The notes under the pieces are model-generated. The model was not told where the DNA came from. It did not search any database and saw only the letters and a program-made list of their open reading frames with translations. The translations under genes and the position numbers were made by a program. This document shows positions 6,179 through 62,953 of a DNA stretch of 64,000 bases, in pieces (position 1 is the first letter of the stretch; every line of letters starts with the position of its first letter). Origin of the DNA: Kalaharituber pfeilii (Eukaryota > Ascomycota > Pezizomycetes > Pezizales > Pezizaceae); the NCBI GenBank assembly GCA_015179045.1, contig WHUZ01000052.1:310001-374000 (forward strand), given 5' to 3'.

Positions 6179-6234
6179 TATCGCATAGCCCACAGGGCGG
6201 CATGCGATTAATGATATTAAAAAAAAAAAAAAAA
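6179..6234 (+). mobile_element. 56-bp hairpin-only LINE insertion
   Basis: Consists only of the shared type-1 LINE tail: ATCGC, the apical hairpin GCCC-ACA-GGGC, GGCATGCGAT, TAATGATATT and 16 A's. It is flanked by the 12-bp duplication CCCCTCCATGCC at 6167-6178 and 6235-6246. It starts one base before the 5' foot of the stem. Confidence 0.9.
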
Positions 6235-6246
6235 CCCCTCCATGCC

Positions 6247-7660
6247 ACACCGCTCCACCGCATTGCCGTACCCTTTCACCACCCCTCCAAGCCACACTGC
6301 TCCACCGCATTCTCGTAGATTGAGCCTTCCATTCTCCCATTTCTCGTGCCGTTGAAAGGGCCCCACAATAGCTGTCAGATTGAGCTCATATGCATACATC
6401 TCGCGACGTTGAAAGGGACCCGACATACCTGTGAAAATTGACCTCATTCTGCCATTGTGGTGTTGTCGATTGGGCCCTATGGTACGTGTCAGATTCAGCT
6501 CACATTCACACATCTCGCGACGTTGAAAGGGACCCGCCGTACCTGTGTACTGAGCTCACATTGCCACATGGGGGGGAATGCGAAACTGTTGTGGGTTAAG
6601 GCTCACATCGGAATTGCAGGGAATGAGAAGGCGGATGGGTGGACAAAGAAAGGGACGATGGAGAAGGGGAGGGAGGTGGCCACCGGGAGTGGGGTGCGCC
6701 AAAGGATAAAGGCGTGGAGGAAAGAGAAGAGAGAGATAGAGGGGTTCGGAGGAGGAAAGGTCATGGAGTGGAGTAGGGTGGCGACATCAAACTTCACTGC
6801 ATTGCCACTGGAGCGAGGAAGGTGTGCAATATGGTTGAAGAAGCTGGGGGTGGCGGAATCGGATAGGTGCAGGTGTGGGGAGGTGCAAACCGGGGAGCAT
6901 CTCGCTTTCCGATGCAGAAGCCAGAAGAACCGTCCAGAAGGTTTTGAGAGGTGGAGCGACATGGGAAAGAATTGGAAGAGAAAGGCGGAGAATGGGGAGG
7001 AATATGACATTTTAGAGAATTTCTTCGTTCTAGAAGTTAGGAGAGCGGGGGCGACGGCGCGATGGGGCCATGTACGTAGAAATCTATTTTAGCCTGTCTC
7101 CGGCTTGCCCAGGGACCCTGCCATGGCCACGTGCTACAAGCGGGGTTATGTGAATTAAAAAAAAAAAAAAAAAAAAATCACATTGCCACATCTCACACCA
7201 TCGAAAGGCCCTTGCAGTACCTGTCAAGTAAATCTCATGTTGCCATACGTCGTGCTGTCAAGAGAGGCCTACCATACCTGTTGAAACTGAACTCTTCCTG
7301 CCATTCTCGTGCCGTCGAAAGGGCCCTGCAGTACGTGTCAATGTCAGTTTGAGCTCCTGCTCACACAATCTCGCGACTCTGAAAGGGACCCGCCATACCT
7401 GTAAATTCAGCTCACGTTGCCACATCTCACACCGGGCCCTGCGGTACCTGTTAAGTTAAGTTCATGCTCACACATCTCATGATGTTACAAGGGACCCGCC
7501 ATACCTGTGAATTGAACCCACGTTGCCACATCAAGCACCGCGAAATCTCATGTTGCCATATCTCGCACTGTCAAGAGAGGCCTGCCAAACCTGTTAATAG
7601 AGCTCATTCTGCAGCATTTCGTGCTGTCGAGGGAGACCTGCTAATATGTGTGAGTAAGTC
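6247..7660 (+). repeat. Degenerate ~57-bp minisatellite array
   Basis: Imperfect tandem units of about 56-58 bp, each with a CACATCTCGCG-like segment, (G)AAAGGG(A/C)CC(C/T)G, (G/C)TACCTGT and TGAGCTCA. Two kinds of unit tend to alternate: one with GACGTTGAAAGGGACCCG and one with GCCGTCGAAAGGGCCC. This gives a repeat period near 114 bp (for example 6397 to 6511). The array is split by LINE-A copy 3. Inverted relatives occur near 23.8-24.7 kb. Confidence 0.75.
6570..7177 (+). mobile_element. LINE-A copy 3, 5'-truncated (608 bp)
   Basis: Carries the end of ORF2: the last RNase H motif (AHIGIAGNEKAD), the connecting region and the Cys/His cluster CRCGEVQTGEHLAFRC, in an open frame up to about 7030. 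The LINE-A tail and poly(A) follow. The 14-bp duplication TCACATTGCCACAT lies at 6556-6569 and 7178-7191. It inserted into the minisatellite. Its sequence groups with the 3' part of copy 1 rather than that of copy 2. Confidence 0.92.
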
Positions 7661-8589: not shown

Positions 8590-9094
8590 GGCTTTTGCAT
8601 CTTGTAACGGACGTAGGAGAGTATAGCAGGATTTTGCGGCAACATAGGCCACTGGAATATCTGGGGACTAGGAGGGTAGCCACACTTGCAGGCATGCTGG
8701 GGAACAAGGGTCTGCGGCAGTGGAGACACCAGAGAGGGAAGGGCGACTCACCGGAGTGTAGGTGGTGCGGCAAAGCCCTCGAGAACTTTGCTTACATTAT
8801 GAATGAATGCGAGGCGTGGAAGAAAAGACTGCCGAGAGGGGAGATGGGGTTGAAGCAGCCAACGAAGACAGAGGGGGAAGGAGACAAGCTGGCGGAGGTC
8901 TTAGATTGGGCGGCAGAGTAATTTCCTTTAATCTCTTATTTCGTTATTCTTCACCCTCCTACCTGTTCATCTTACTTTTCTTTTATTTCCTTATTCTCTA
9001 CCGTTGGACGTATCATGTATCTAACTCCTCGCCATAGCCTATAAGGCGGCATGCGAGTAATGAAATAAAAAAAAAAAAATAAAAAAAATAAAAA
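8590..9094 (+). mobile_element. Truncated LINE (D-like), C-terminal end + tail
   Basis: Encodes only the last ~100 residues of a LINE ORF2, ending in the Cys/His cluster (CRWCGKALENFAYIMNEC, where the usual His position is Tyr) and DWAAE-stop at about 8921. A 3' UTR and the type-1 hairpin follow, with apical stem GCCT-ATA-AGGC, then an interrupted A-rich tail. The 5' boundary is approximate; GATGG on both sides could be a short target duplication. Confidence 0.8.
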
Positions 9095-9114
9095 GATGGG
9101 TCGCGGTAGAGGAG

Positions 9115-9145: not shown

Positions 9146-9487
9146 CATTACTCGCATGCCGCCCTCTGGGCTATGGCGAGGTGCTAAATACATGAAATTG
9201 AATATATAAGGAAAAGTGAAGAAAATGAAGACTGCTCTGTTTCCTATCTCCCTGCCCAATCCATTAGTTCCCACAGCTTGTCTCTGTCTTCGTCCTTGTC
9301 TGTCTTTGGGTGGCGGAGGTCGTCAATGCCTCGGGGGCATTTCTGTTTCCACACCCGGCAGTTTGTCAATATGTGTTGTGTTGTCTCGGCTTCCTCGCCG
9401 CACCATCGGCAATCTGGGCTGTCTGCTGTCCCCACCCTGTGTTTCCACGCCCGTAGGCCCTTGCCTCCTATGATGCCCGCCAGGGTA
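9115..9487 (-). mobile_element. Truncated LINE (D-like), 373 bp
   Basis: Minus-strand 5'-truncated LINE. It encodes the C-terminal Cys/His cluster CRWCGEEAETTQHILTNC and ends MDWAGR-stop, then a 3' UTR, the type-1 hairpin (GCCC-AGA-GGGC) and poly(A), read here as T's at 9115-9140. GGTAGAGGAG at 9105-9114 and 9488-9497 is the target duplication. It interrupts the host-gene remnant that resumes at 9488. Confidence 0.9.
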
Positions 9488-9972: not shown

Positions 9973-11907
9973 GATAGACAGATAGCATCTACTACTGCCT
10001 TTCGATGGACCGGAGCGGTGAGAACTGGCGGAATGAACGTACGACCAAATGCGAGTGCGAGTGCGAAAGTGTGGGTGCGAAAAGAGGAGAAGAGAAGAGA
10101 AGGTTGTTGATTGTATGCGCTACAGTTCAGAAAGTCTATATATATGATATTGCCTCACGTGCTGCCCTGTACTGTACCACATACACTCAACAACCTTCTC
10201 TTCTCTTCCCTTTTCTTCGTACCCACGCTTTTGCACTCGCACTCGCATTCAGTTTTTTTTTTTTTTTTTTTTTAATATCATTAATCGCTTGCCGCCCTAT
10301 GGGCTATGGCGATGTCCTAGATACATAAGGAAAAATAAAACCATAATGAGTAAGTAAGGTAATTCTCCCCTTGTCGTCCCCTCTGCTACATGAAAGTTCT
10401 GAACTCACTCCCCCAACATTTCTATCAACGCCCTCAGCGGGTCCCCCTCCCCCTCCTTTCCCCGTGGGGGCCTCCTGACATGATCCTCCCCTCCTGGCCA
10501 CCGCCTCCTCCATACCCTACACTCCACTAACAGATGTCTCGTCGTCTCTTCCTCTTCTCCGCACCACCTGCACTCTGGACCATCCCCTTCGCCTACATGC
10601 CACCTCCAGGCCCTCAACCCCTTGCCCCCCAAGAGGCCCGCCAACCGTCCTATCCCCTTGCCGATCCTCTCTAGCGGTCTGTATGTCAATCCCAACCGGT
10701 TCCTCTCCTCTGCTCTCTCTCCTCCCCTTCTGTCTCAGTCCGGCCTCTGTCACCATCTCCGACTTGTACTGCAAGGCAGTACCCGTTCTCGCTGCTTTGT
10801 CAGCCCTCTCGTTGCCGGCAATCCCCCTATGATCCTTCACCCATAAAGCCGCTATGTCCCAGTCTCCTCTCAGGATCCTCTTTTCCCAAGCTTCCCTGAG
10901 CCGCCTCGTCGCCCCGTCGTGAGCGAGGTCCCCCCTTGAGACCGCCGTCATCCTCTAGATCGCATATCTAGAGTCCGTTATGATCAATAGCTCCCCTTCC
11001 ACTCTCTCCATCGCCTCACTAATCGCCATCATTTCCGCATCATTCACTGTAGCCTCCTCCCCTAGATATATTGATGTCGATCTACCCCCCCAAAACATAC
11101 CCGCTCCCGCCTTCTCCTCCCTCATGCTCCCGTCTGTATATACTGGAACCCACCCCTCGTCTGTAACCTCATCTATATGTCTCTCCCACTCCCCCCACTC
11201 CGCATCCCGGTGCAACGTCTGTATGACTGCCAGTGGTAGTTCCCTGTTATGTGTCAACGACCCTCTCAGGTACACTTTCTCCTCGTCCCCTTCTTTCAGC
11301 CGCTCCCCCTCGAACCTCAATGCTCTCGCCTCCACTCGCGTCGCCTCCCATCTCACAAACGTCTCCACCGACTCCAAGTTTGCTAATCCTTCCACCACGT
11401 CCCGCCTCGTCCCCCACGGGGCGTTTGTGATCTCCCTCGCCACCGTGTATTGCCACTTCTCCAACTCCCTCAACTTCTTCTCTCTTGGGGCCCCATGAGC
11501 ATAATCGTGCCATGCCCACGCCCCCTAGGTCGCGATATTGCGTGCGATACTTGTATATAGCTGTCTCCGTTTTGCCGGTACCATTCGAGTGAGGCGTGCC
11601 GCTGTAGCCCATGCTGCCTTCCCTAGGCTCAGCCGATGGGTGTGATGTTCATCAAACTTCATCTCCCAGTCCACCTTCAGTCCCACCAGCCGGTAAGAAG
11701 GCCCTCTGACCCCAACTATCAACGTCTCCTCTTTGTCCGTATCAATCTTGAAGCCCTCCCCTTCCGCGTCTCTCGTCAGCGCCTTCCTATGCCCTCTTAT
11801 CTTTCTCCTCAACCCGTTCATATTCGCATTCAGTTGTACATTCATTCCACTAGTTCTCACTGCTCCCGTCCTTCGAAAGGCAGTAGTAGATGCTATCTGT
11901 CTATCTT
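9971..11907. repeat. Foldback element, ~140-bp arms, split by a LINE
   Basis: The left arm 9971-10111 is an inverted repeat of 10187-10252 plus 11834-11907, with a 75-bp loop at 10112-10186. The outer arm starts AAGATAGACAGATAGC and ends with its complement near 11907; the inner arm shares GCGAGTGCGAGTGCG and GAGAAGGTTGTTGA. LINE-C sits in the right arm and duplicated TCGCATTCAG. Without it the element is about 356 bp and would fold into one long hairpin. No coding sequence and no flanking target duplication were found. Confidence 0.85.
10253..11823 (-). mobile_element. LINE-C, 5'-truncated (1571 bp), degenerate ORF2
   Basis: Read on the minus strand from 11823, it covers the end of RT, the thumb (WQYTVAREITNAPWGTRRDV) and RNase H (VYTDGSM, VNDAEMMAIS, IITDSR, GNERADKAA), then the C-terminal Cys/His cluster in a shifted frame. 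Stops at about 11526 (TAG where LINE-B has Trp) and about 10953, and a frameshift near 10690, inactivate it. The tail is the type-1 hairpin (GCCC-ATA-GGGC) with poly(A). The target duplication TCGCATTCAG lies at 10243-10252 and 11824-11833. Confidence 0.9.
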
Positions 11908-11996: not shown

Positions 11997-12411
11997 TTTT
12001 TTTTTTATATCATTACTCGCATGCCGCCTGATAGGCTATGGCGAGGTTCTTTTAAATATATGTGTAACGGAAATGAAAGGAAATTGAGTGAAAGAAAATA
12101 AGATAGCGAAAACTCGATGATGTCCCGTCCCTATTCCTACTCTTTACTTGCCCAGAACAGGATCATCTGTCAGTGTGTCTCTGTCTCCGTCTGTTTTCGG
12201 GGGTCGTTTCAGGTCCTCCTCCCCCCCTTGCAGTTTCCGTTTACAAACTTCGCATTCTGTCAGGACATGGGCAGAGGTCTCCGGGGCTTTGCCGCACCAC
12301 CTGCACTCCGGACTGCCCGATTTCCCGATTTGGTATCTCCAATTTTTTTTTTTTTTTTTTAGATCATTAATCGCATGCCGCCCTAAGGGCTATGGCGATA
12401 GGTATCTCCAA
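11997..12411 (-). mobile_element. Truncated LINE (D-like), itself hit by a hairpin
   Basis: Minus-strand remnant encoding the C-terminal Cys/His region (SPECRWCGKAPETSAHVLTEC), a 3' UTR and the type-1 hairpin with apical stem GCCT-ATC-AGGC. Its 5' end is near 12411. A 58-bp hairpin-only insertion lies within it at 12343-12400. No clear target duplication was found for the outer copy. Confidence 0.8.
12343..12400 (-). mobile_element. 58-bp hairpin-only LINE insertion, nested
   Basis: 18 T's (poly(A) on the minus strand) plus the AT-class hairpin with loop TTA, starting one base outside ATCGC. The target duplication GGTATCTCCAA lies at 12332-12342 and 12401-12411. It inserted into the coding end of another LINE. 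Confidence 0.92.
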
Positions 12412-12635: not shown

Positions 12636-12757
12636 CATGTAAAGACATAGTCTAGTTGACATAGATGCTTACTCCTGTTCACTCTCTCACATCTATATAC
12701 CTCTCCTACTTGCCTGTATGTAGTCTCCACTGGTCAACGTACGTTCATTCTCTCAAC

Positions 12758-14180
12758 GACAACAACCACCTCAGGACGAGCGTTTGGAAGCGACTCCACA
12801 ACCACAACGTCCCCCCCAGCGAAAATCACATAGATCGATAGCTCTCAGCGAGCTGAGTCTGGTGATCTAACTTTTATCCCCAAACACCCAAAACTACAGT
12901 TTTCACCCGAGGGGAAACTTTCGAGGGAATCTTCAGCTCACCACCTCCGTTGCCCCCACATCAACCTCATCCCTGCCTCTGCCAAGACCCGTCGAGCAGC
13001 CAACCAGAATGCCGAAAATCAAGAAGACAAGCAAAGTCTCCCCGCCGCCGGCCCCCTCTAGGACCCCTTCCCCGCCGCCGTCCCGGAAAAAAAAATCGCT
13101 ATTCGAGATTCAGGGTAGGCTTCACGACGGCCCCATGTCGGTGGACGAGTTAGAGAGAATCATAGCCGACTGCTGCGAGTACTTAGACGAATACGAAGAC
13201 GAAGCGTTGAGACGCGCAGCAGGGGAGACGAAACATATGGCATGGTTCGGCGTGTCAGTCGTGAAGCGACTCCAGCCGCCGCCACCACCACCGCCACAGA
13301 CACTGGGGCTCAGCCCCATCACGTTCACAGACATACAACCGACGGAGAACACCGCCGAAGCCCTTGGCTTCAGCACAATTGACACGGTTCACTCGGAGGA
13401 GCCCTCTCCCGAACCCACAGCCTACACCTCCCCTGAACCCACCTCCCCCCCAGCGGCAACATCCCCGACCGCCGCCCCTACCACCCGAAGCAGAAAGCGC
13501 AAGGGCAAGAAGCCGTCTCCCCAAGACGCGTATGCCATAAAGCGCCAGTTGAGCGACGAGGAGGCAAGGAAGATTGCCTCAGCAACCCCCCCAGCCCCAG
13601 CAGACACACCGGCAGGCAGCACGCCCGCCACCATCCAAGACCCCGGACCGCCGACACCAGCACCAAAACCACCGACACCAACACCCGGACCCCATCCTCG
13701 CCCCCGGACCGCGCCCCAAAGCCCCAAAGCCAGACCCCACCCTCCGACCCGCCCCGACAATATCACTTCGAGACAAGGCATTGTCGTCCACGGCATAGCC
13801 CTAAGGAAAGACCTGGAAAATGTCAAAAGATGGTTGGAGGCGTCCAACAAAGACATAGGCAGAATCACAGGGATCAGATGGCTACGGAAGAAGACAATCC
13901 TGATGGAGGAAGGCAAGCAGACAAGCTCCGTGGTAGTTTACCTGGAAACACCAACGGAAAGCGGGAAAGTTAGACTCGGAGCAAGGTGGTTGCAGACAAG
14001 TGTGTACGAGGCAGAGAGAGGAAGGAAGTAGGAAGGTCACTGGGGTTACTTCTTTGACTTCTCACCCGCATCACGTACGAACACCGCGGGCACAACATGT
14101 ACTTAGCCTTTTATTTTTTCTTTCTTTTAACTTTAATAAAACACCTCGCCATAGCCCATAGGGCGGCATGCGACTAATGA

Positions 14181-14210
<30 letters not shown>
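12758..14210 (+). mobile_element. ORF1-only non-autonomous LINE, copy 1 (1453 bp)
   Basis: Starts GACAACAACCACCTCAGG, shared with the copy at 36.2 kb, and ends in the type-1 hairpin and about 28 A's. It carries one ORF and no endonuclease or RT. A near-perfect 14-bp duplication flanks it: ACGTTCATTCTCTC at 12741-12754 and ACGTTCTTTCTCTC at 14211-14224, with three extra bases (AAC) at the 5' junction. It probably moves by borrowing the RT of LINEs that share its tail. Confidence 0.85.
13009..14031 (+). CDS. ORF1-like protein of the ORF1-only element
   Basis: 340 residues, intact. A short basic N-terminus (KSLFEIQGRLHDGPM) and an acidic helical segment lead into a long Pro/Thr-rich linker with a basic patch (RSRKRKGKKPSPQDAYAIK). 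The C-terminal ~85 residues form a conserved domain (GIVVHGIALRKDLENVKRWL, ITGIRWLRKK, SSVVVYLET, VRLGARWLQT). The C-terminal pattern resembles the RRM-like RNA-binding region of fungal LINE ORF1 proteins; this is judged by eye. No CCHC knuckle is present. The copy at 36421-37446 conserves the C-terminal domain while the linker has diverged, suggesting selection on the domain. The ATG at 13009 aligns with the start of the second copy. Confidence 0.8.
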   Translation: MPKIKKTSKVSPPPAPSRTPSPPPSRKKKSLFEIQGRLHDGPMSVDELERIIADCCEYLDEYEDEALRRAAGETKHMAWFGVSVVKRLQPPPPPPPQTLGLSPITFTDIQPTENTAEALGFSTIDTVHSEEPSPEPTAYTSPEPTSPPAATSPTAAPTTRSRKRKGKKPSPQDAYAIKRQLSDEEARKIASATPPAPADTPAGSTPATIQDPGPPTPAPKPPTPTPGPHPRPRTAPQSPKARPHPPTRPDNITSRQGIVVHGIALRKDLENVKRWLEASNKDIGRITGIRWLRKKTILMEEGKQTSSVVVYLETPTESGKVRLGARWLQTSVYEAERGRK

Positions 14211-14211
<1 letters not shown>

Positions 14212-14632: not shown

Positions 14633-14990
14633 GCCGAAGTATCGAGAATAGCGGGCCTTTTAGGAGGGAAGGGATTGAAGGCGTGGAGACACAAGATAGG
14701 AGAGACAGGGGACGCGAGTTGCCGGTGGTGTGGAGAAGGGGACGAAACTTACGCGCACCTGATGGGAGAGTGCAGAACGTGGAAGAGGAAGTGGCCAGGG
14801 GGGGAGGAGGAGTTGAGGAGACCGAAGGAGTCGGGGGACGGGGACCCATTGTAGGTGGTGCTGGACCTCCTAGAGGAGCCGATGTAGGGGAATTCCGTTA
14901 GCTCGTTTGTTATTTTTTTCTTCTTCATGTACGTAAGACATCGCCATAGCCCCCGGGGCGGCAAGCGATTGATGAAATAAACAAAAAAGA
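14633..14990 (+). mobile_element. Truncated LINE, 358 bp
   Basis: Encodes the C-terminal end (IAGLLGGKGLKAW, CRWCGEGDETYAHLMGEC), a 3' UTR and the AT-class hairpin with a GCCC-CCG-GGGC apex. The tail is short and A-rich, interrupted by C and G. The 13-bp duplication AATACACGTGCAT lies at 14620-14632 and 14991-15003. Confidence 0.92.
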
Positions 14991-15317
14991 AATACACGTG
15001 CATTCCTGTTGCCGCGTGCTTGTTGTTACCTGGTGCTTATATTACTTGTGTTACATTTATATGCCAACATTCATAATATAATCGTGTGATTCTTTGCAAC
15101 TCCTCGCGCAAGAAAAGTTAATACATTTATTACATTCAGCGACACAGATCAGCTCTTGTAGCGGAGTCCTCGCTAACGTATAACACTCCGTGTATGCTGG
15201 CGCCAGATATTTTAACAACAGCACATCTGGGTCCTCAGCATCCGAGATCCGACTTAGAATGTCACTAGAATTTAATCCTGTGGAACTGGAGAATTGCAGG
15301 CTATCTGATTTACTTCT

Positions 15318-15380
15318 CGCCATAGCCTATTAGGCGGCACGCGAGTAATGAAATAAAAAAAAAAAAAAAAAAAAAAAAAA
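15318..15380 (+). mobile_element. 63-bp hairpin-only LINE insertion
   Basis: Begins exactly at CGCC of the type-1 stem (apex GCCT-ATT-AGGC) and ends in a poly(A) of over 20. It is flanked by a perfect 16-bp duplication TATCTGATTTACTTCT at 15302-15317 and 15381-15396. Confidence 0.95.
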
Positions 15381-16300: not shown

Positions 16301-16362
16301 TTTTTTTTTTTTTTTTTTTTTCTTTCATTAATCGCATGCCGCCCTATGGGCTATGGCGATGA
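16301..16362 (-). mobile_element. 62-bp hairpin-only LINE insertion
   Basis: About 20 T's followed by the AT-class hairpin (apex GCCC-ATA-GGGC), starting three bases outside the ATCGC stem on its own strand. The target duplication GCACAAAAGGTC lies at 16289-16300 and 16363-16374. Confidence 0.93.
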
Positions 16363-17436: not shown

Positions 17437-17796
17437 CCTTCGCGCGGGCCTGGAGGTGGCACTTAGGCGAAGGGGACGGCCCAGAGTGCAGGTGGTGCGG
17501 AGAAGAGGAAGAGACGACGAGACACTTGTTGGGGGAGTGTAGGGTATGGAGGCGGCGGTGGCCAGGAGGGGAGGAGCATATCAGGAGACCACCACGGGGG
17601 AAGGAGGGGGAGGGGGACCCGCTGAGGGCGATGATAGACATGTTGGGGGAGTGAGTTCAGAACGCGGAGAATTATTTCTGTCATGTAGTAGAGGGGATGA
17701 CAAGGGAGGGCTACCTTACTCGTTTCATTATGTATCTAGGACATCGCCATAGCCCATAGGGCGGCAAGCGATTAATGATATTAAAAAAAAAAAAAA
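17437..17796 (+). mobile_element. LINE-C 3' fragment
   Basis: Close relative of the 3' end of LINE-C at 10253-11823. It covers the C-terminal Cys/His coding region, here out of frame, the 3' UTR and the AT-class type-1 hairpin with poly(A) ending at 17796. The flanks share only CTTCGCGC, so the target duplication is uncertain. The 5' boundary is approximate. Confidence 0.75.
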
Positions 17797-51265: not shown

Positions 51266-52756
51266 GAGAGAGAAAGGGGGGAGAGAGAATGGAGATTGAC
51301 TCAAGAAGTGATATGGAGGGATCAATACATCGACCCACCATCAAGCTGGGAGACCTGTTTGGGAGAGCGCCTCAGGATGGGTGGGAGGCTGAGAGCAGTG
51401 GAGTACCAGACGCATTATGGTGAAGGTAGGATACCTGAACGTAGGAGGGGTAGTGTGGTAGGCCATGTATGGAGGGAGAATATTTTCAAGGAAGGGTGGG
51501 ACTTGGGTTTTGAGGGAGAAGTTTGGAAGAGGAAGGAGGAGTCAGGGTGGAAGACAGGAACTCACCCAGGGCTAAAGAGAAGAGGGGAAGTAGGGGCGGG
51601 GACCAGGGTAGTAGGATGGGAAAGAGGAGGGAGAAGGTATGGGGAGGGGAGAAGGGGGGGGACAATGTTGTGTGGGATAGAGTGGGTGATGTGGTAGTGG
51701 GGGGGGTATATGTAGATGGGAATTGGCGGGGAGAGGAGTTTGAAGGGTGGCTAGAGAGGGTGCTGGAAGTGGAAGGAGACTGTGTGATACTAGGTGACTG
51801 GAATGCACATAGTGAGATGTGGAGCTTGGAGGGGACAGGAGAGAATAGCAGAGGAAAGATCTTGAGGGAGAAAATGGAGGGGGCGGGATTTAGCCTGGCT
51901 GGGGAGAGAGTAGGAACATGGAGGAGAGAGGTAGAAGGGCGACTGAAAGAATCAAGGATTGATCTGGTTTGGTACCGAGGGGTGAGGGGGGTAGAGGTGG
52001 AGTATCTAGATTTAGGTTCGGACCATTCAGCACTGGTAGTGGAGTTCGAGGAGAAGAAAAGAGAGGGAGAGGAAGAAGAGGTAAGGGTACGTATAGACTG
52101 GGAGCGGATGGAGAAAGAAATTGAGGGGTTGAATGGAGAGTGGGGAGAGCAGGAGAGAAAAGAGTGGGTGGAGAGAATAGGTGAGGGGGATGCATACCAG
52201 AAACTCAAGAGGTGGAAGAGATCACTTGAGAAGAAGGTCAGAGTGAGCGGAAAAAGCAAGAAGTGGTGGAGCGAGGAGATTGAGGAGCTGAGAAAGGAGG
52301 TAAACAGGCTTGCAAGAGGAGGCGTGGGAGCTCGTGCGAGACTGGCAAATGAGGAAAGAGTGAGGGGTTGGAAGGCAGCGATACAGAAAATGAAGTGGAA
52401 GATCCGGGAGGAGAAAAGAAGGTGTTGGAGAGAGTTCATAGAAGAGGAGGGAGTCAGTGATCCATGGAGGTTAGTGAGGGTGGCGAAGAACCCCTTTGGG
52501 AGAGGAGAAAAGATGGGGACTCTCATGGATGAGGAGGGGAGGGAGCTGGAAGGGGATGTAGAAAAGGCGGAAGCTCTGGTGAAGAGGAACTTCGCCTTCA
52601 AAGAGGAAGAGGAGGAGACTCAGGAGATTTTTTTTTTTTTTTTTTTTTATATCATTACTCGCGTGCCGCCCTGGGGGCTATGGCGAGATTAGTTACATGA
52701 GATTAGATACATATGAAGGTAGAAGAAAAGGAATAAGAAAAGATCCTGTGTGTCTC

Positions 52757-55700
52757 CTATGCCCCTGCCCACTCCAAGATGTCTCTAAGTGGGTCTGTGT
52801 CCTTGCTCTTCGGAGGAGTGACCAAGTCTTGCATGCCTCCTGGCCACTTTCGTTTCCATGTCCTGCACCTAGTGAGCACATGTTCAGTAGTCTCCTCCTC
52901 CTCCCCACACCATCGACATTCTGGGCTGTCTGCTTTCCCGATTTCGTACTGCCATTTCCGTAGTAACTTGCCGCCCAGTATTCCTGCTAGTGTGGCTATG
53001 TGTCGACTTCCAAGTCTTGTCAAGGGACGGTAGCTGAGCCCTAGCCGGTTTCTCTCTGTGGCGCGCTGATGTCTCGAGGTTTGTCGTATCCCATCTTCTG
53101 TTATGGTTTCATCTTGGTAGGGGAGGCATGTGCCTATTTTCGCAGCTGTGTCTGCCTCGGTGTTCCCTTTGACTCCTATATGGGACTTGACCCACATCAC
53201 TGCAACGTCCCAGTCACCTCGGTCTGTTCTCGCTTTCCAGGCGTCTCTAACCAGTTTTGCCGGTCCTTTGTGGGTGGGCTCTCCCTGGGCGATCTTTAGG
53301 AGCTTGGATATCGATACCTTAGAGTCGGTTATGATCAGGAGTTCCCCAGCTTGATTGCGTAATGCTTCGCTCATGGCAATGAGTTCTGCATCATTGACAG
53401 TAGTCTGTTCCCCTAGGTATGTGGAAGTAGAGGTGTCTTTTGCGTAGGTGCCTAGGCCTGTCTTGTAATCTATCCTGCTCCCGTCAGTGTAGACGGAGTT
53501 CCACCCCTCGTCCTCGGCATTGGCTATGGCATTCTCGAACTCGAGCTTGTCTGCGTCCGCAGGTAGTGCTGCTAGGATGGCTAGTGGTAGGGGGTTGTTG
53601 TGTGAGAGAGACCCCCGTAGGTACCTGCACTCATTATCCCTGTTTTGAATTATCTCATCGTGGAACCGTAGGGCCCTGGCTTCTACCCTCTGGCGTTCTC
53701 CTTCTAGGAATGTTTGGGCTGATTCTAGGTTGGCTATTCCTTCGACTACGTCTCGCCTGGTACCCCACGGGGCTGCAGTAATCTTCTGTGCTACTGTGTA
53801 TTGCCATTTTTCTATGTCTTTGATCTTGGTTGCTGGTGGAGACTGTCTTGAGTAGTCCTGCCATGCCCAGCATCCCCATGTGGCGATTGTGCGTGCGATG
53901 CTTGTATATATCTGTCGTTTCTTGCCTGGTGTGAGGCGAGTTAGTCTCGATGCCACTCCCCATGCTGCCTTCCCGAGAAGTAGTCTCTTCTTATGATGTC
54001 GAGTAAATTTTAGCTCCCAATCTACCGTCAATCCGGTTAGCCTATAGTCAGGGCCTTTTACCCCAATTATTAGTGTCTCGGACTTGTTTGGGTCAATTTC
54101 GAATCCATGCTCTGCTGCTGTTTCGGTGATTTTTGCCCTGTGTATCTTTATGGCTTGTCGGAGTTTTAGGAGTGACGGATGTGAGATTACACTGTGGAAA
54201 TCATCGACATATGACCTGGTGAAGTTGTGTTGGTCTACCTTCTCTGCCACAGGTGCTACACCTATCAGGAATAGTACCGGGATAGTGGAGATCCTTGCGG
54301 TGTACCATCTGTCATCCTCCCTGTAGCTCTCCTTTTGCCATCCCATGTCATGTTGTAGTTGGTCGGCATCATAAAAGCTTCTACAAAGCTCGCTAGGTTA
54401 TGGTCTGTTTGTCTTATTCGAGCAACCACCTTGTCCCTTCGAAGAAAGTTAAAAGCTGACTTGATATCGTCTCCTACTAGGGCTACCCATTCTTTCTTCT
54501 GTAGCCTCTTCTCTGTCTCCTTCAGCACTTGTCGCTGTAGATCCTCTGCACCTCGATGGCGTCTTCCTCCAAGCTGAGTGTCTCTGAAAAGGTCGTCTTT
54601 TCTTTGTAGCAGGTCTGCGATGACTTTTTGACCTAGCTTCGCTACTGTGTTCAGAAGCGTTATGGGTCTCCAACTCCCTACCTGATCTCTGGGTTTCCCT
54701 TTCTTGAGTATCATAACCACCTCAAAGCCTCTGGCAAAGTCGTAGTCACCGTTTATATACTCTACAATTCTCTCTCTTACAGCAGTCCATAGAGTCGTAC
54801 CCTTCAGAAGCTTCAGTAAGCCATATTGTATGCCATCGGGTCCCGGTGCTGATCTTGGTTTAGCTTTTGTTAGTGCCTTTTCTATCATCATCCTGGCTTG
54901 ATCTTTTTCGACGGTGAGTCCTGTTGGTCTGATAGTAGTGGTCGTAGTTTCTTGTCCTTGTGATATGAAGTTGCGCTCAATCAATACCTTAGCTATCTCC
55001 TCGTCTGAGCCTGGTATCCCCATGAGGTCTCTTTGGCGGAAAGGGTCTCTTGCTAGCCTGAAAATATCCCATGGTGAGGTGATTCTGTCCTCTTCTAAGA
55101 AGCCTTCCCAGTATTCCTTCTTCTTATCTCTTATTATCTCCCTAAGTAGTCTTCTCGCTCTTGTTTTCTCTGTGTGGCTAGCCCCGCTCTTTAGAATGGT
55201 TCTGGTCATTTGTCGTGCCTCTTTTACCTCCTTGTCGAACCATCGTTTCGTGCGTCTGGTGATGTATGCATCTTTTGTAAACTTTTGGCTTAATTCACAT
55301 AGTAGTTCATACCCATCAATACCTTCGGCTAGTTTTCTGTTGCCATATTTATCAACAAATTCTTCCCATTTGTCCCAGTCTGTTACTTTGATGGTTTTGG
55401 CCTCTGTCTTCTTTCTGGTATCCAATGTTCCGATAATCATCACATGGTCTGTACCAGAAATCCATGTTGTCTTTGTTGTTTTCCATTCCCTGGGCCTTGC
55501 GAATACCAGGTCCAAGAGTGCCGTTCTTATCTGTCCATTGATTGTCCGTGTCCATGTGATAGTATTTCTATCTATCTGTTGGAGTAGTCCTCGTGCTTGG
55601 AGGGTGTCTTTTAATAGTATGCCTCTAGTATCTTGTTTCGGAGACCAGTCATAGTGATGGCTGTTGCAGTCCCCTATTACCATATCCGTTACTCCTATCT

Positions 55701-56025
55701 CTTCCAATTCCTTCTCAATATCGGTGTCTCTGTTCCAGTACACTCCAGTAATCATTCGGTCGTCTAATTGTACTGTGATGTGGTTGGCTTTGCCGTCTAT
55801 TTTCATGCTCATTATTCTGTCCTTCCTTACGTAGGCTGTTATTGCTCCGCTTTTTATAGGAGAATGTACGTTCGTATAGCTTGGATGAAATGTAGTTCCT
55901 CCCCTTGGTGCTCTCCAGCATTCCCCTATAAAAAGTATATCTATTTTCTTGTCTGCTGCTTCCTGTAGGGCTAGGTCCGTCCCCAGTATTGACCTGCCAA
56001 CGTTCTGGTATGCGACCTTAATCAT
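52757..56025 (-). pseudogene. LINE-B ORF2 (endonuclease-RT-RNase H), one frameshift
   Basis: Starts at the ATG at 56025. APE endonuclease: NVGRS, FIGECW, VIGDCNSHHYDW, GTDHVMI. RT: APGPDGIQYGLLK, VVMILKKGK, WRPITLLN, VGDDIKSAFNFL, GTPQGSPLS, then SYVDDFHSVI. RNase H: VYTDGSRIDY, VNDAELIAMSEAL, IITDSKVS, GNTEADTAAK. The C-terminus has CRWCGEEEETTEHVLTRC, C-x2-C-x8-H-x4-C. One C appears to be missing in a short C run near 54270, just after GTPQGSPLS, so the product reads as 586 and ~500 residue parts. All catalytic motifs are present. Confidence 0.92.
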
Positions 56026-59000
56026 AGTCTTATTTGTCGATACCCTGGTGCCCTATATGGGGTCGCTTTCTCCTGTGCTGCTCTCGCTCGTTCACACCCT
56101 TCCTCGTGTCCGCCTTTCTTTCGACAAGCCTGGCATGACTTTGCAAATGGAGTTTCATTGAGGTCGACTGGGTCTTCGTAGTCTCGCCTTGCTGGTGAGC
56201 TCTTCAGATGTTCTGGAAGGTTGCGTTGTCTGGGGAGCCACTCGATTACCTGTCCCACTACGAAATGTCGGCAGTATCCATCTGGAGCAGTGTACCTATA
56301 TCTTCTGGCTTTATTCGAGGTCTCCTTTCCTAGATCCTGTCTTAGGTATAGCTTTATTCTATCACCTCTGAAGAGTAAGCCTGATTTTAGGGTCTCGACT
56401 ACTCCATCAGTCACAAAAATGGATAGTGCCTTGTTTCCTTGTGTTGGGACCTGTTTGTTAGTTAATCTGCGTACTGATCTATTGGCCAATACTCCTGGAT
56501 TGTCAGCTCTCAATTCTCTCTCCACCCTGCTCGGAGCCTCATTGGTTCCTATGTTGAAAGTTACTAGCTCAACCATTCTGTGATCCCAGTCGACTTTTAG
56601 ATGTTGGTGTCCATTGCATGTTGCTTTCTCTAGGGGGCCTAGAGACCTAAGTCCTTTCTTATACTGAGTATCTGCCATGATTAAGATTCTTTCGTGGGGG
56701 TATTCTGGGTCCAGGGCAACGAATCTCACTTGGTACTCTGCTTCCGTTCCTAGGTTTCGATTGATCCTGTCTCTCATGGCCTTTTTGTGCTCGAACACTG
56801 AGTGTGATCTTGGATCCTCACTAATACTCTGCCAGTTTTGCGCCCCAAAGACTCTCGCCTGCCACAGTTTCTCCTTGGGTATTACTTCTTCCTCACCCTT
56901 CTGTGCTGGCCCCTTGAGTAGTGTCCGCTTTTCCTCTTGTCTCTGAGTTGGGGTTCCTGCTTGGGGTTTGTCTTCTCTTGTGAGTTTGGCTTCTTTTACT
57001 GCCGTAGCATATGATTTCCTTTTCTCAGTGGATTGGGAGCGTTTTGTCTCATTCTCTGGTGTCCTCTCCTTGCTTTTCTCTCCTTTATGTGTCGGTATGT
57101 TGGGAGTACTACTTGTGCCTCTCGTCTCGGCCCCCTTCTTGTTGTCCAGTTTCTCAGTGGTAGGAGCACCCTCACTGGTGGCTGTTTTGTTAGTATTATT
57201 TCTAGCTATTCTATTGGTAGCTGCTCCCTTTCGTCCATCTCCTTGGGGCTTGGATCCACCTCGTGATGTCTTAGGAAGCTGTACTGTAGTTGTAGACTTT
57301 ATCACAGGTTCTTGCGCCGGGCTTGAGTTTGTTGGTATGCTGTTGGACATGTGTATGGTACTCGACATGTCTGTGTTGTCTCGCATGGCTATGTCTCTGT
57401 CAATTTCGATTGCGTGCTTGCTGTCTTTGAGGTTCGTATTGGTGAGCTCATAATCCATACTATCTCCTCCTTCTTCTGTAGTCTTCCGGGCAGGTACCGA
57501 GGAGCTTCTCTTTCCTACCGGCCTTCGTATCATTCCTGTGAGGGGCGATGGTATTGTCTTGAGCCTGACCGCGTGCCTGCTATCCTCAAGTTTCACGTTT
57601 GTATAAGTTCTGTCCATTTGGTCCCCTCCTTCTTCAGTAGTTAGTTTGTTATTTGGCATGGGTGATGCGCTAGGCGTGCTGAGGTCAATTAATGTAGGCG
57701 TCTTTGTCTCCAAGGGTGTGGCCGTTGCTGTCAATTCGGGCGTGTTTGCTCCTGAGGTAAGGTCATTCCAGTTTGTTGTATGTGTCAGTGTGAGTTCTGG
57801 TTCCATTTCGATTCTGCCTGGCGTGACTACCCCGAGTCTTCTTCTTAGGTCATCCAGGATATTGCTGTGGTATTGTAAGGCGTCTAGGATAATCCTCACC
57901 CAACTGTCGTCCCGCTCTCTGAGGGTGTCTCGGTTGAATATCTCGTATAGTATTTCGTCCTTGATTTTCTTTCTTTCGACTGCCATCTGGTTGAGCATGA
58001 AGTGGCGAATGCCCTCGTGGTGTGTTTCTAAGCACACTCTCGTGTGCTGTTTTAGGTCTTGTTGTGCCTCTTCTAGTTCCCGGCTTATGTCAGTATGGAT
58101 ACTATCCGTTCCTGCTGCTTGCTCGTTCCTCCAGGCCCAGTATTTATCAGCCATATCCCTCGTCCATCTTTTAAGGTCATTATCCACTTCTCTTTCCCAC
58201 CTGCCTAGTCCGAATCGTTTCTCTAGTCCCCGTAGGGCTTCTGCTGCTGAAGCTCCCATATATCTGGCAGTCTCTTGTTTCATACGGCCCTGAGTCATCT
58301 TGGTTTCCCAGGAGCGTGCCTGCCTCGCTGCGGCTATTGCTGTATCCAGCATGAATTGCTCCTCATAGGCACTCTCATCCATGTCCGGGGTTCGGGGTCT
58401 GTCCGGAGTTGGTGGCCGAGTGCTGGAAGTTGCCGGTATATATATTACTGTGTCGTCTGATGACTCGCTTTGTGTGTCGTCTGATGACTCGCTTTGTGTG
58501 TCATCATCTTTAATGGGCATGTGTGCTCCGGCGTGAGGCACCGGGGTGTACCCTTCATTGTCACTAAAGTCTGGGTCCTTGTATAGGGGGAGGGACGTGG
58601 TCTTGCTTGTGGATGCAGGTTCCTCCTGTGAATCCGGGACCTCTGACTCATTGTCATATGTCGCCGGAATCGTAGTTCTTAATTCTGGTGGTCTCACCAT
58701 GATCATTTCTTCCATCTTGTCGTAGGTATTAGGGGCGGGTGGCTTTACTACAATTGTCTCCTCCATCTGGTCTTCGGGTGGGCGGGAGTCCATGGCCTTG
58801 CTTCTTTCGATGAACTCAATTATTTGCTGGGTCAGAACCCTGCCTGCCTGTATGTCGTCGATAGTTATTGTCCTAACAGGGACCTCAATGTCCTCCTCGT
58901 CTGCGAATACGCCTCGCCCCACCGCTAGGGTGGTTGCATTTTCCATTCTTTCTGCCTTTTCCGGTTCTCCCTTTCTGGTGTGTTGGATAATGTCAGCAAA

Positions 59001-59195
59001 CTTATGAAGGGTCCATTGCTGGTCTTCGGCGATAAATGTCATGTCTTCATGCGCCTTCCAGTCCTTCACCATATAAAACTCTATGTTATTTACCCTTGGG
59101 CGGCGCTTTGCCGTCCGTGTGGCGCTTTTGGCTTGCCGAAGAGGGTCGGCCCGGCTGTTGGTTCGGCCTCTTGTGGCTTTCGTGGCTGGAGCCAT
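56022..59195 (-). CDS. LINE-B ORF1 protein, 1057 aa, intact
   Basis: The RNA-binding partner of the LINE-B polyprotein. Residues ~1-250 are mixed with acidic Ser/Asp-rich stretches, including a short repeat (TQSESSDD twice). A helical middle (residues ~285-470) and a long polar, disordered Thr/Lys/Glu-rich section follow. A globular C-terminal part (VRFVALDPEYPHERILIMAD, VDWDHRMVELVTFNIG) ends in one CCHC-like knuckle CQACRKKGGHEEGC. It starts MAPATKATRGRTNSRADPLR. Its TGA stop overlaps the ORF2 start as ATGA, suggesting coupled translation. It is much longer than the ~340-aa ORF1-like protein of the ORF1-only elements and not clearly related to it. Confidence 0.85.
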   Translation of the reverse strand: MAPATKATRGRTNSRADPLRQAKSATRTAKRRPRVNNIEFYMVKDWKAHEDMTFIAEDQQWTLHKFADIIQHTRKGEPEKAERMENATTLAVGRGVFADEEDIEVPVRTITIDDIQAGRVLTQQIIEFIERSKAMDSRPPEDQMEETIVVKPPAPNTYDKMEEMIMVRPPELRTTIPATYDNESEVPDSQEEPASTSKTTSLPLYKDPDFSDNEGYTPVPHAGAHMPIKDDDTQSESSDDTQSESSDDTVIYIPATSSTRPPTPDRPRTPDMDESAYEEQFMLDTAIAAARQARSWETKMTQGRMKQETARYMGASAAEALRGLEKRFGLGRWEREVDNDLKRWTRDMADKYWAWRNEQAAGTDSIHTDISRELEEAQQDLKQHTRVCLETHHEGIRHFMLNQMAVERKKIKDEILYEIFNRDTLRERDDSWVRIILDALQYHSNILDDLRRRLGVVTPGRIEMEPELTLTHTTNWNDLTSGANTPELTATATPLETKTPTLIDLSTPSASPMPNNKLTTEEGGDQMDRTYTNVKLEDSRHAVRLKTIPSPLTGMIRRPVGKRSSSVPARKTTEEGGDSMDYELTNTNLKDSKHAIEIDRDIAMRDNTDMSSTIHMSNSIPTNSSPAQEPVIKSTTTVQLPKTSRGGSKPQGDGRKGAATNRIARNNTNKTATSEGAPTTEKLDNKKGAETRGTSSTPNIPTHKGEKSKERTPENETKRSQSTEKRKSYATAVKEAKLTREDKPQAGTPTQRQEEKRTLLKGPAQKGEEEVIPKEKLWQARVFGAQNWQSISEDPRSHSVFEHKKAMRDRINRNLGTEAEYQVRFVALDPEYPHERILIMADTQYKKGLRSLGPLEKATCNGHQHLKVDWDHRMVELVTFNIGTNEAPSRVERELRADNPGVLANRSVRRLTNKQVPTQGNKALSIFVTDGVVETLKSGLLFRGDRIKLYLRQDLGKETSNKARRYRYTAPDGYCRHFVVGQVIEWLPRQRNLPEHLKSSPARRDYEDPVDLNETPFAKSCQACRKKGGHEEGCERARAAQEKATPYRAPGYRQIRL

Positions 59196-62100
59196 CGGTG
59201 GCTGGTGGGTTGTACGCTACTGGTCTTAGTATGTTGGGTGGCGTTTGGGTGGCAAGGGGTGTGTGTAGCTAGTGGATGTGAGTGGCGAATAGTGGGTGGC
59301 AAATACTGTCCTTATCTGGGTTGCGTATTTTCGTAGTGGTGGGGAGGCCGCTGATGGGGTCTCGGGGTGCCCCCGCCGTCAAGGCGACTGTACGAGCTGA
59401 AGGTGGGTTGGGGGGTTGGTGGAGGTTCTGGGGGCGTTCCCAGAGCGTTGATGGCTGTTTCTTTGGGGAAGGTGTCTAAATGTTCGTTTTTGGTAGATTT
59501 TTAGAGGTCCCCGCGACCTTCGGGCCGAGGGGCGTCGTCTGTCGTTGTCCGCTTGTCGCTAGCTGTCCTGTGGGTCGAGATACGGGCTCGGTCACGTGAT
59601 CTTGGACGTGGCCCGAGGAGGTTGTAGAGGTGTGTGGAGACTCAGGAGAGCGGAGAGGTAGAGGGAGGGAGAGAGGATAGAGACAGACAATGGAGGGGCG
59701 TGGAGGAAAGAAGAAGAGTAGAGGAGGAGGTGAAAGCGGCCCTAAGAAGCACAAAAAACACATCAGCGCCAGGTCCAGATGGAATTGGATATCGCCTTAT
59801 CAAAGCGGCATTGAAGACACCATTCGGAGACCAGCTGGTGAACGAGGTTGCAGAGAAGTGGATGCAGAACCAGATTCCCAAGGAGTGGAAGGAAATGAAG
59901 GTTGTTATGATACCGAAACCAGGCAAGGATATTAGAACAACGAAGGCCTGGAGACCGATCAACCTGATAAACTGTATAGGCAAGATCGGAGAGAAGGTAA
60001 TGGCGAACCGGCTCCAGAGGGAAACAGGACTCTTCCATAAACTGCAGCTGGGTGCGAGGAAGGGCAGAAATGCAGTGCAAGCAATGGCGAGGGCGGTGAC
60101 AAAGGCACAGAGGTGCCTGCACAGAGGGGGGAGGGCAGCATGGGTCACAGCAGATGTAAAGGGGGGGTTCAACATTGTTAGAAAGGAGGTGGTATTGAGA
60201 AGGATAGAGGAGAAGGGGAGCGTGGAGGTAAGAAAGAAGAGGAGGTGGCTGGAGAACTTCATGGGGATGAGAGAATTCGGTGTGGAGTGGGATGGAAGAG
60301 TGAGAGGAAGAGGGAAGGCGAATGTAGGGGTCCCACAGGGGTCCCCACTGTCACCAGTTCTCTTCTTGATTTTTATGGCACCAACAATGGAGAAGATTGA
60401 GAAGAGAGTAAGGGGGGTAGCGACAGGAGTGGAGGTTGAGGCGCCTTCGTATGTGGACGATATAGCAGTGACGGTCCTAGACTGGCATGGCTATTGGGAT
60501 ATGGGGAGGCTGCGAGAGAAGGTAAAGAAGGAGGTGAAGGAGGTGGCAGAGGAGGATCAGATCCCACTGGAAGAGTCGAAGTGGGAGATGATAACGTTTG
60601 GCGTAGGAAAGAGGCAGAAGAAGGAGGGGGAGTTTCTGAAGTGGCTGGGGGTCATCTTTGATGAAAATTTGACCTTCACGGCACACTGGAGAAACAGAGT
60701 CAGCAGAGCAAGAAGGTTGACCGGAGCACTAGCGGGGTTGGGAAATAGGGATTGGGGAATAAGCCCGAGGAGCTGGAGACAGATTTATACGGGCATGATT
60801 AGAGCGGTAGCCATGTGGGGTAGTGAGATAGGTTGGAGAGGACAGAAGGAGTGGAGAAGAGAAATGGAGAGAGTACAGCTGCAAGCATTAAAGAAGGCAG
60901 CTGGAGGGGGGAGAGGCACAGGGGTAGAGGGGGTGAACGCAGTGTGCGGAGTGGAGGGGGTGGAGGTGATCCTGGACGCAGCACAGGCAAGGGCGATGGT
61001 TCGGGAAGTGGAGGTGCCATCGGAGCTTGCAGAACTATGCACAGGAGATTTCAGGAGAGGGAATGAGGAGAAGGAGGAGGGGATGAGAAACTGGAAGGAC
61101 TGGGGGGTGCAGTGGGCCCTGGAAGAGGGGGATGGATATGAAAGCGTTTTGGACCGCTGGCAGGGGCAGTGGTCAAGGTTCTCGGAGGAGGGCGAGGAGA
61201 TCTCATGGGGAGGAGAGTGTGAGAAGGTGAAAGTGGAGTGCGCAGAGAGGCTAGGTAGAAAGGGGGGTGGGAGAGAAGAGTGGGAGACCTCGGTTGAGGA
61301 AGCCGGAAGAGGGAGAGCGGTTCTCTTCTCGGATGGCAGTAAGGTCGGGGACAGCAAGGTGGGGGCGGGGGTGTGGGGGAGATCAGCGGTGGTGGCGGAG
61401 GTAGTAGGGAGAACGGCGACGGTTTTTGACGGGGAGGTGAGGGGGGTGAGAAGGGCGCTGGAGGGTGTACCGGAGGAGGTACCGGTCCTGGTTTGCTTAG
61501 ACTCTGAAGCTGCTGTCATGGCGATTCAGAAGGCAGGCAGGGAGGGAAAGGGAAAGACGGAGGATGTGAGAAGGGTGGTGAATGCAGTGGCGAGGAGAAA
61601 GAAGAAGGGGGGGGATGCGAAACTGTTGTGGGTAAAAGCTCATATCGGAATCGCAGGCAACGAGAAGGCGGATGAGTGGGCGAAGAAGGGGACGGTGATG
61701 CAGGGGAAGGAGGTGGCCACCGGAAGTGGGGTGCGCCAGAGGGTGAAGGCGTGGAGGAAGGAGAAGAGAGAAGTGGAGGGCTTTGGAGGAGGAAAGGTCA
61801 TGGAGTGGAATAGGATAGCAGTATCCAATTTCACTGCCTTGCGCCTGAAGAGAGGGAGGTGTGCAGTGTGGTTGAAGAGGATAGGGGCGGCTGAGTCGGA
61901 TAAGTGCAGGTGCGGGGAGGTGCAAACCGGGGAGCACCTCGCTTTCCGATGCAGAAACCAGAAGAACCGTCCAGAAGGCTTTGAGAGGCGGGGCGACATG
62001 GAAAAGAATTGGAAGAGAAAGGCGGAGGATGGAGAGGAGTATGATATTTTAGAGAATTTCTTTTCCAAGGTCAAGTTCTAGAAGGTAGGAGAATGCGGGG

Positions 62101-62267
62101 TCAAGTTCTAGAAGCTAGGAGAGCGGGGGCGACGGCGCGTGGGGGCCATGTACGTAGAGAGTTAGTTTAGCCTGTCTCCGGGCTATGAGGGCTTGCCTAG
62201 GGACCCTGCCATGGCTTAGTGCTACAAGCGGGGTTATGTGATTAAAAAAAAAAAAAAAAAAAAAAAA

Positions 62268-62953
62268 TAGGATTGGCAAGAGTGACGGACCGGAGTGCCG
62301 ATGGTGCGGGGAGCGAGAGGAAACGACGAGCCACCTATTAGACGAATGCCGGGTGTGAAAGGAAAGGGTATGGCAAGGAGGAAGGGAGGAAATAGCTAGA
62401 CCCAAGGAGGACGAGGGCAGGAATCCACTAATGCGCCTCATGGAACACTTTGAGGAGATGGACTGAACTGACTGAACTTCAACTTTCATTCCAGGGACGG
62501 GGATTCTTTTTTAGTTTATCTCTTATGAACTGTTACTTTCACCAAAGGGACGGGGTTTCTTTAGTTTATCTCTTATGTAGTTAAGATCTCGCCATAGCCC
62601 ATAGGGCGGCACGATGGCAGGTGTGTGGGGAAGGAGCACCGGCATCCACCAAAGCCAGAGAACTCGAGGCATGGCAATACACAGTCGCCCAAATCACTAG
62701 GGCCCCATGGGGCTCAAGAACAGATATAGTGAAGGGACTCGCTAATTTGGAGTCAATACAGACCTTCTTAGAAGGGGAGTGCCAGAGAGTCGAGGCACGC
62801 ACCTTACATTTTACCGATGAACCCTTACGAAGGGAGGATCCAGAAAGCAGGTACCTCCAAGGATCGCTACACTACCGAGAGACCCTCCCACTGGTAACCC
62901 TACCCAGCATTCCAGCAGAAGTATTGATATAAAAAAAAAATAAAAAAAAATCT
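62268..62953 (+). mobile_element. LINE (C-like) end with its tail split by a LINE interior piece
   Basis: 62268-62466 encodes the C-terminal cluster (IGKSDGPECRWCGEREETTS, one stop after ECRV) and ends MEHFEEMD-stop. The 3' UTR contains a repeated GGGACGGGG-TTTAGTTTATCTCTTATG unit. The hairpin at 62588-62613 stops at GGCGGCACG. An interior piece of a LINE thumb domain (62614-62926: WQYTVAQITRAPWGSRTDIV, ESIQTFLEGECQRVEARTL) is then followed directly by GTATTGATAT and poly(A), the normal end of the tail. Confidence 0.78.

Follow-up and report, generated by a model that had tools for sequence, protein, structure and literature searches.

A conserved 3' hairpin with covarying closing pairs in LINE-A retroelements, an element lacking reverse transcriptase and minimal insertions of Kalaharituber pfeilii

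Introduction

Why do many retroelement insertions of unrelated length in one genome end in the same 3' structure? The question was raised by a stretch of 64,000 nt from Kalaharituber pfeilii (assembly GCA_015179045.1, contig WHUZ01000052.1, positions 310,001 to 374,000, forward strand), referred to here as the window. K. pfeilii is a desert truffle according to the available text of PMC7550596. The original prediction, made from the letters of the window alone, described a 3' hairpin with two covarying pairs and proposed that it is recognized by the reverse transcriptase (RT) of a long interspersed element (LINE). The hairpin was found to be the 3' end of one LINE lineage, named LINE-A. It stands before poly(A), is conserved, covaries at two pairs and is specific to that lineage. 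It is shared with class C, an element without RT, and also occurs as minimal insertions bounded by target site duplications (TSDs). It is very likely the 3' recognition element of the LINE-A clade, read by the LINE-A RT in the manner of a stringent-type LINE and acting in trans too.

Structure of the hairpin and its copies in the window

The hairpin is 30 nt long. A basal stem of 5 bp is separated by an internal loop (4/5 nt) from an apical stem of 4 bp, which is capped by a triloop. The pattern is N-TCGC / CATA / GCCY-nnn-RGGC / GGCAY / GCGA-N', and TAATGAtat and poly(A) come after it. Re-reading and alignment placed it at the positions named by the original prediction. The window alignment held 18 copies in 17 distinct rows, and six copies were folded. 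Four copies stood outside the alignment: 31305 (minus, apical stem deleted), 62589 (plus, 3' arm cut off), 12653 (minus, 3' half only) and the old copy 25263. An Rfam 15 scan of the whole window gave no match at gathering score, and the matches of a further Rfam search were all far under gathering scores. The features are listed below with the basal and then the apical closing pair.

52658..52687, minus: hairpin of the full-length LINE-A, C-G / C-G, loop CCA, then TAATGATAT and poly(A)
6180..6208, plus: A-T basal, one base deleted; hairpin-only insertion, TSD CCCCTCCATGCC at 6167 and 6235
9028..9057, plus: C-G / T-A; LINE-A open reading frame (ORF) remnant upstream
9151..9180, minus: C-G / C-G; LINE-A remnant, 308 nt upstream of hairpin, TSD
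10284..10313, minus: A-T / C-G; LINE-A remnant
12016..12045, minus: C-G / T-A; LINE-A remnant
12370..12399, minus: A-T / C-G; hairpin-only insertion, TSD GGTATCTCCAA (plus strand) at 12332 and 12401
14145..14174, plus: C.C basal mismatch; class C tail
14940..14969, plus: A-T / C-G; 308 nt LINE-A remnant, TSD
15316..15345, plus: C-G / T-A; hairpin-only insertion, TSD TATCTGATTTACTTC at 15302 and 15381
16331..16360, minus: A-T / C-G; hairpin-only insertion, TSD GCACAAAAGGTC (plus strand) at 16289 and 16363
17743..17772, plus: A-T / C-G; LINE-A remnant
24592..24621, plus: C-G / C-G; class C tail (ORF remnant 24162-24469)
25648..25676, plus: C-G / C-G, one base deleted
31286..31306, minus: apical stem deleted, basal stem intact (C-G)
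31572..31601, minus: C-G / C-G; insertion with 141 nt upstream of hairpin, TSD
36128..36157, plus: hairpin at class C 5' end, no poly(A) after it
37560..37589, plus: C-G / C-G; 3' hairpin of the class C element 36126..37622
45052..45081, minus: two basal pairs broken; LINE-A remnant

The basal closing pair was C-G in 10 distinct rows, A-T in five and another state in two. A sixth A-T copy has an identical row, so the predicted counts of about ten C-G and six A-T copies agree. At the apical closing pair 13 rows were C-G and four T-A, the latter being the copies named beforehand (9033, 11997, 15318 and 36126). The triloop differed among aligned copies, as predicted, and stem positions besides the closing pairs were almost invariant. 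Three copies had been named as exceptions to basal pairing. Copy 14150 has a C.C closing pair, as claimed. Copy 45024 has its closing and third pairs broken. Copy 36126 has a broken second pair (C.A) but an intact closing pair, and it is not the end of an insertion with a tail but the 5' terminus of a class C element (TSD GTGGCTGATTTTT). The old copy 25263 had been credited with a perfect stem. Its extended apical stem is indeed perfect, but no more than three of the five basal pairs could be read in the sequence. The 31261 copy kept its basal C-G pair but lacks the apical stem. The insertions of unrelated length were LINE-A or class C copies or the hairpin alone, and their lengths vary because their 5' cut points differ or nothing but the hairpin is present.

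The copy at 31286-31306 retains the whole basal stem and has lost the apical stem-loop, possibly by the RT skipping over the apical hairpin. The region 62589-62930 is a rearranged copy in which the hairpin is cut at its 3' arm and followed directly by an internal LINE-A fragment (62615-62923). At its end this fragment has TATTGATAT and poly(A) but no hairpin.

Genome-wide abundance

The genome of K. pfeilii (78 Mb, 360 contigs) was searched with the hairpin pattern. With up to two mismatches it occurred at 7974 places (4030 + 3944). The reversed-pattern controls gave 0, ruling out a chance origin of the motif. The exact 28-nt core was present in 4473 copies and was absent from GTDB genome contigs and from IMG/VR. 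Among the 4473 exact cores the basal closing pair was C-G in 2885, A-T in 1337, C·T in 20, A·G in 43 and other in 188. Half-changed states (C·T and A·G) thus made up 63 of 4285. The apical closing pair was C-G in 3597, T-A in 727 and other in 149.

Covariation and independent origins of the paired variants

Covariation was tested on 132 distinct hairpins (97 distinct rows) from the window and all loci fetched from the genome. Column pairs at least three apart were scored by G-test with average-product correction. The null was 200 alignments simulated along a FastTree tree, a simplified version of the R-scape idea in which the tree came from the hairpins themselves. Only pairs 6-35 and 18-22 rose above the null (0 exceedances in 200 replicates), and the next-best pair had an E of 0.3. 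These are the two closing pairs, so the predicted covariation at two positions was significant in the larger alignment as well. Pair 10-31 included three T-A copies and was not significant.

A maximum-likelihood tree of LINE-A was constructed from 34 C-terminal proteins (30 different, 301 columns). Copies covering fewer than 125 of 267 columns, LINE-A1 copies beyond six, hairpin-less copies (score <20) and seven named copies were left out of it. On this tree the basal pair changed state at least six times, two of the changes being decay to mismatch. The apical pair changed four times, with no apical mismatch among the rows. Each closing pair therefore switched at least four times independently. 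The chance of full concordance of both arms was about 1e-4 per pair in a simulation with 20 tips and four changes per site, 14 of the 34 tree rows being left out (two mismatch-decay rows and 12 near-identical copies). The tree switches and the simulation together ruled out an origin of the paired variants from two source copies, the outcome named beforehand as refuting the prediction. All four combinations of basal and apical state occurred. The hairpins of loci L099 and L100 (C-G) and of L106 (A-T) differed at the two closing bases only, with loop, internal loop and trailing TAATGAAAT identical. Twelve class C or class-C-tailed hairpins comprised ten C-G, one mismatch and one A-T (L071). As the paired letters change together, the folded shape itself appears to be preserved, and the alignments support selection on the paired RNA shape of the hairpin.

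LINE-A carries the hairpin

The window contains one full-length LINE-A.

52628..59635, minus: full-length LINE-A nested in LINE-B, a second LINE; TSD GGAGACTCAGGAGA at 52614 and 59636
56022..59216, minus: LINE-A ORF1, 1064 aa, no Pfam match
54265..56052, minus: LINE-A ORF2 part 1, endonuclease and reverse transcriptase
52757..54397, minus: LINE-A ORF2 part 2, RNase H and C-terminal zinc finger region, ending 73 nt before the hairpin

ORF2 has the domains Exo_endo_phos_2, RVT_1 and RNase_H, the APE-type set of the I/Tad1 group. It lies in two overlapping frames in the window copy, and other copies are open for up to 1098 aa over the RNase H part. Non-LTR 'I' elements are abundant in Ascomycota according to the accessible part of PMC7550596. 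Relatives of LINE-A in the genome went down to about 50% protein identity, and loci L059-L088 were mostly one subfamily. In a protein search with the RNase H part all 13 relatives found were from K. pfeilii (7996 candidates scored). That search and a second one, both intended to name the clade, scored only the roughly 8000 candidates sharing most words; the second gave two weak unnamed matches. A target-site motif was sought at 48 sites and only weak biases were found.

The hairpin was present in 69 of 70 distinct LINE-A copies reaching the ORF end, 56-143 nt downstream of it. Among copies fetched by their ORF, which leaves aside the window, the hairpin-fetched loci and one locus fetched with LINE-B, the count was 51 of 52. 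Of 116 longer copies, 79 had the motif TGTAnnTA in the 30 nt before the hairpin, compared to 0.9% of background 30-mers. It was seen in LINE-A 3' untranslated regions, for example in L089-L107, and its UGUA resembles a cleavage-factor site.

LINE-B has a different tail

LINE-B served as a comparison lineage, with 29% identity to LINE-A in the best stretch.

62161..62267, plus: LINE-B 3' tail, unrelated to the hairpin (RT ORF 59628-62081, plus)

Twenty of 21 aligned LINE-B copies had their own unrelated tail, and the remaining one (L056) was cut short inside the tail. Comparing tails with RT lineages, as had been suggested with the original prediction, thus separated the two LINEs, and a tail common to all LINEs of the genome was ruled out. 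Four LINE-B loci (L040, L041, L055 and L056) had a hairpin further off in the flank. That of L041 was a hairpin-only insertion with its own TSD, those of L040 and L055 were class C tails, and that of L056 followed a LINE-A remnant.

The LINE-B tail is GC-rich, running from AGCCTGTCTCCGGGCTATGAGGGCTTGCCCAGGGACCC to CAAGCGGGGTTATGTGATT and poly(A) (window 3720-3826 and 62161-62267; L039-L058), and is possibly a second recognition structure. Its GGGGTTATGTGA was also found at 7142 and 30387. In window 6341-7745 a 20-nt tandem repeat lies together with diverged repeats, each about 90 nt long (GAAAGGGACCCGCCATACCTGT...). Similar sequence was present in the flanks of L039 and L046.

Class C, a partner element without reverse transcriptase

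Class C elements are 1.4 kb long, encode one ORF of about 370-390 aa and no RT, and have the same hairpin tail as LINE-A.

12755..14211, plus: class C element, no RT; ORF 12871-14031; TSD CGTTC[A/T]TTCTCTC at 12742 and 14212 (one mismatch)
36126..37622, plus: class C element with hairpins at both ends; ORF 36331-37446; TSD GTGGCTGATTTTT at 36113 and 37623

Both ends were visible in these two copies and in L024 (TSD of 10 nt). Sixty hairpins from the window and from the pattern loci (L009-L038, the first 30 of contig C1 and thus a non-random draw) were sorted by what precedes them. LINE-A coding sequence lay upstream of 20, nine were hairpin-only and 31 were neither, part of the latter being class C tails. 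The extra 5' hairpin of the copy at 36126 lies inside the TSD, has no poly(A) and begins at the stem base. The class C part begins at about the point where the copy at 12755-14211 starts, so this 5' hairpin looks like a template switch onto hairpin RNA, in one case.

All 19 relatives matched by the class C ORF were from K. pfeilii (7983 candidates scored). A Pfam search of the class C ORF and LINE-A ORF1 gave no match. Comparing it by hhalign with two further ORFs of the window, LINE-A ORF1 among them (E 0.14), established no homology. The C-terminal 80 residues were predicted to fold as beta-alpha-beta-beta, resembling RNA recognition motifs (RRMs) and, weakly, human L1 ORF1p. The structure model had an overall predicted local distance difference test (pLDDT) score of 61, with residues ~285-364 only as its usable part, and Foldseek found no match to it at E 0.001 or better. 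An ORF1-like role for the class C ORF is a guess.

Hairpin-only insertions

A confident TSD was found for 49 of the 132 hairpins, and for the other 83 none was confident. Sixteen of the 49 confidently dated insertions started between -1 and +8 nt from the first T of the stem and were thus hairpin-only, compared to 0.12 expected from a shuffled-flank control. The 5' ends were then mapped by scoring the 3' half of the hairpin alone, which also makes truncations inside the hairpin visible. There were 27 insertions with a TSD and a 5' end from -30 to +320. Fourteen ended at -2 to 5 (0.075 from shuffled flanks), one at 8, three inside the hairpin, none at 9-50 nt upstream of it and nine further up. 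A uniform spread of 5' ends had a p of ~3e-16. Fifteen of the 27 thus begin at the 5' edge of the hairpin, which with poly(A) is a recurrent minimal insertion.

Hairpin-only and longer insertions did not differ in TSD and tail lengths, so the same machinery probably made both. The upstream TGTAnnTA motif was absent in 15 of the 16 hairpin-only insertions. No head derived from an RNA gene, as in a short interspersed element (SINE), was found in them, with at most a few nt between TSD and hairpin; the other non-LINE-A copies were not scanned. Descent from one master SINE was ruled out, as several loop types and trailing sequences occurred, some matching different LINE-A subfamilies. An enrichment of A-T hairpins was also ruled out (8 of 16 compared to 12 of 33, p 0.54); copy 6180 is missing from the A-T count, being one base short and read out of register. 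Insertions starting inside the hairpin, with the 3' part only, were seen at window positions 50538 and 12653 (both minus), at 4087 of L085 (plus) and at 3519 of L087 (plus). Three of them had a TSD in the 5'-end mapping and that of 12653 was found by eye. A keyword search of open-access literature for hairpin-only or tail-only insertions returned nothing on point, which is no proof of absence.

Proposed mechanism and alternative explanations

The LINE-A protein would select RNA ending in the stem-loop and poly(A), nick the target and start target-primed reverse transcription there. Closing pairs would drift by compensatory change and the loop would drift freely, with the remaining stem and most of the internal loop held near fixed. 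The hairpin would work in trans when carried by class C, which lacks RT, and by the hairpin and poly(A) insertions. The minimal insertions may come from RNAs degraded from the 5' end up to a hairpin protected by the RT. The RT-recognition reading of the original prediction was thus supported by the covariation, by at least four switches per pair and by the match of tail to lineage. Physical contact of RT and hairpin and use in trans are inferred.

Several results weigh against this reading. Single-sequence folding of the six copies gave a modest gain over shuffled sequences (z -1.1 to -1.9). Two of the nine pairs were variable enough for testing, the rest varying little or by decay. An independent-pairs sign test had too few pairs (4/4 at most, p 0.125). 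One of the LINE-A copies, L102, lacked a hairpin within 330 nt. Part of the recognition could also lie in the poly(A) tail.

In an alternative account, recombination or template switching would pass whole 3' tails from one LINE subfamily to another, and both arms would change in one event. Tails are modular, being common to class C and LINE-A, and one class C element has an extra 5' hairpin, so template switching near hairpins probably happens. Block exchange would however make other columns covary significantly with the basal pair, and none did. The four state combinations, and the closing bases that alone separate L099/L100 from L106 despite the same trailing TAATGAAAT, also argue against it. 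The two arms lie on either side of the apical stem, so a recombination event within the hairpin would disrupt pairs instead of keeping them. Tail exchange is considered unlikely as the source of the covariation. Another possibility is that the hairpin is no RT site but acts in LINE-A transcripts as a signal for 3'-end processing or polyadenylation, or as an RNA stability element. It directly precedes poly(A) with the A-rich TAATGAAAT stretch, and TGTAnnTA is frequent upstream of it in longer copies. That motif is missing from nearly all hairpin-only insertions, however, and the different tail of LINE-B in the same genome means that the hairpin is no general requirement for a poly(A) end. Such a role is judged very improbable.

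Within the recognition reading, the minimal insertions could arise in two ways. An RT anchored at the tail may fall off at the 5' edge of the stem, leaving the template untrimmed. An anchored RT would set a boundary there, and the 5' ends do cluster within a few nt of the stem base. It should however stall on entering from the 3' side and leave half-hairpin insertions or insertions of poly(A) alone. Ends within the hairpin were rarer (3 of 27), and poly(A)-only insertions were not searched for. This account has a real but lesser chance of being correct. Alternatively the hairpin and poly(A), about 60 nt, may be a complete natural substrate, 5'-trimmed leftovers of LINE-A RNA-protein complexes still being able to insert. 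Trimming is tentatively favoured for two reasons. Under abort, half hairpins would be expected more often, and the 5' hairpin of 36126 likewise starts at the stem base, as though there were a free RNA with this 5' end.

Comparison to known systems

LINE-A has features of a stringent-type LINE, namely a 3' stem-loop, compensatory change and non-autonomous partners with the same tail. The shape of the truffle hairpin (two stems and a 4/5 internal loop) differs from the tails of eel UnaL2, zebrafish ZfL2-1 and ZfL2-2, Bombyx R2 and SART1. Unlike these it ends in poly(A), and its sequence is different. The mammalian HAL1-type element has a single ORF1-like gene and relies on the RT of a LINE. Class C is similarly a single-ORF element without RT, although no homology of its ORF to LINE-A ORF1 was established by hhalign, and the C-terminal domain of that ORF is RRM-like only by weak fold matches.

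The available text of PMC4176376 describes UnaL2, ZfL2-1/-2, R2 and SART1 as stringent-type LINEs whose 3' stem-loop or 3' untranslated region is used by their own protein. LINE-A resembles them in having a conserved 3'-terminal structure common to mobilized partners. Stringent-type tail recognition through a 3' stem-loop is thus known already, fungal Tad1-clade LINEs included, as far as the accessible parts of PMC4176376 and PMC3747384 go. Mg-SINE and MgL of Magnaporthe and SINE2-1_BG and Tad1-24_BG of Blumeria are fungal pairs, each a LINE and a non-autonomous partner with one 3' tail (PMC3747384, available text). Those partners are listed there as tRNA-derived SINEs, whereas the truffle partners are an ORF-bearing element without RT and hairpin-only insertions. 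Compensatory changes are also described, in the same available text, in the stem of a 3' hairpin common to a plant L1 and a monocot SINE (PMC3747384). In the plant hairpin it is the stem that varies, with loop and flank conserved. In the truffle the stem and most of the internal loop are near fixed and the triloop is variable. As far as the literature searches go, the hairpin family, its scale, the ORF-bearing partner without RT and the hairpin-only peak are new.

Conclusion

Within a single genome, the argument from covariation for LINE tail recognition can here draw on many RT subfamilies and thousands of copies. Tail specificity is directly testable, because one nucleus contains two LINE lineages that differ in their tails as well as an ORF-bearing partner that lacks RT. 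The hairpin-only insertions amount to a natural deletion experiment on how much RNA a LINE RT needs and on why 5' truncation falls where it does. If the trimming account is true, the minimal insertions with their TSDs would record the footprint of the RT on its RNA.

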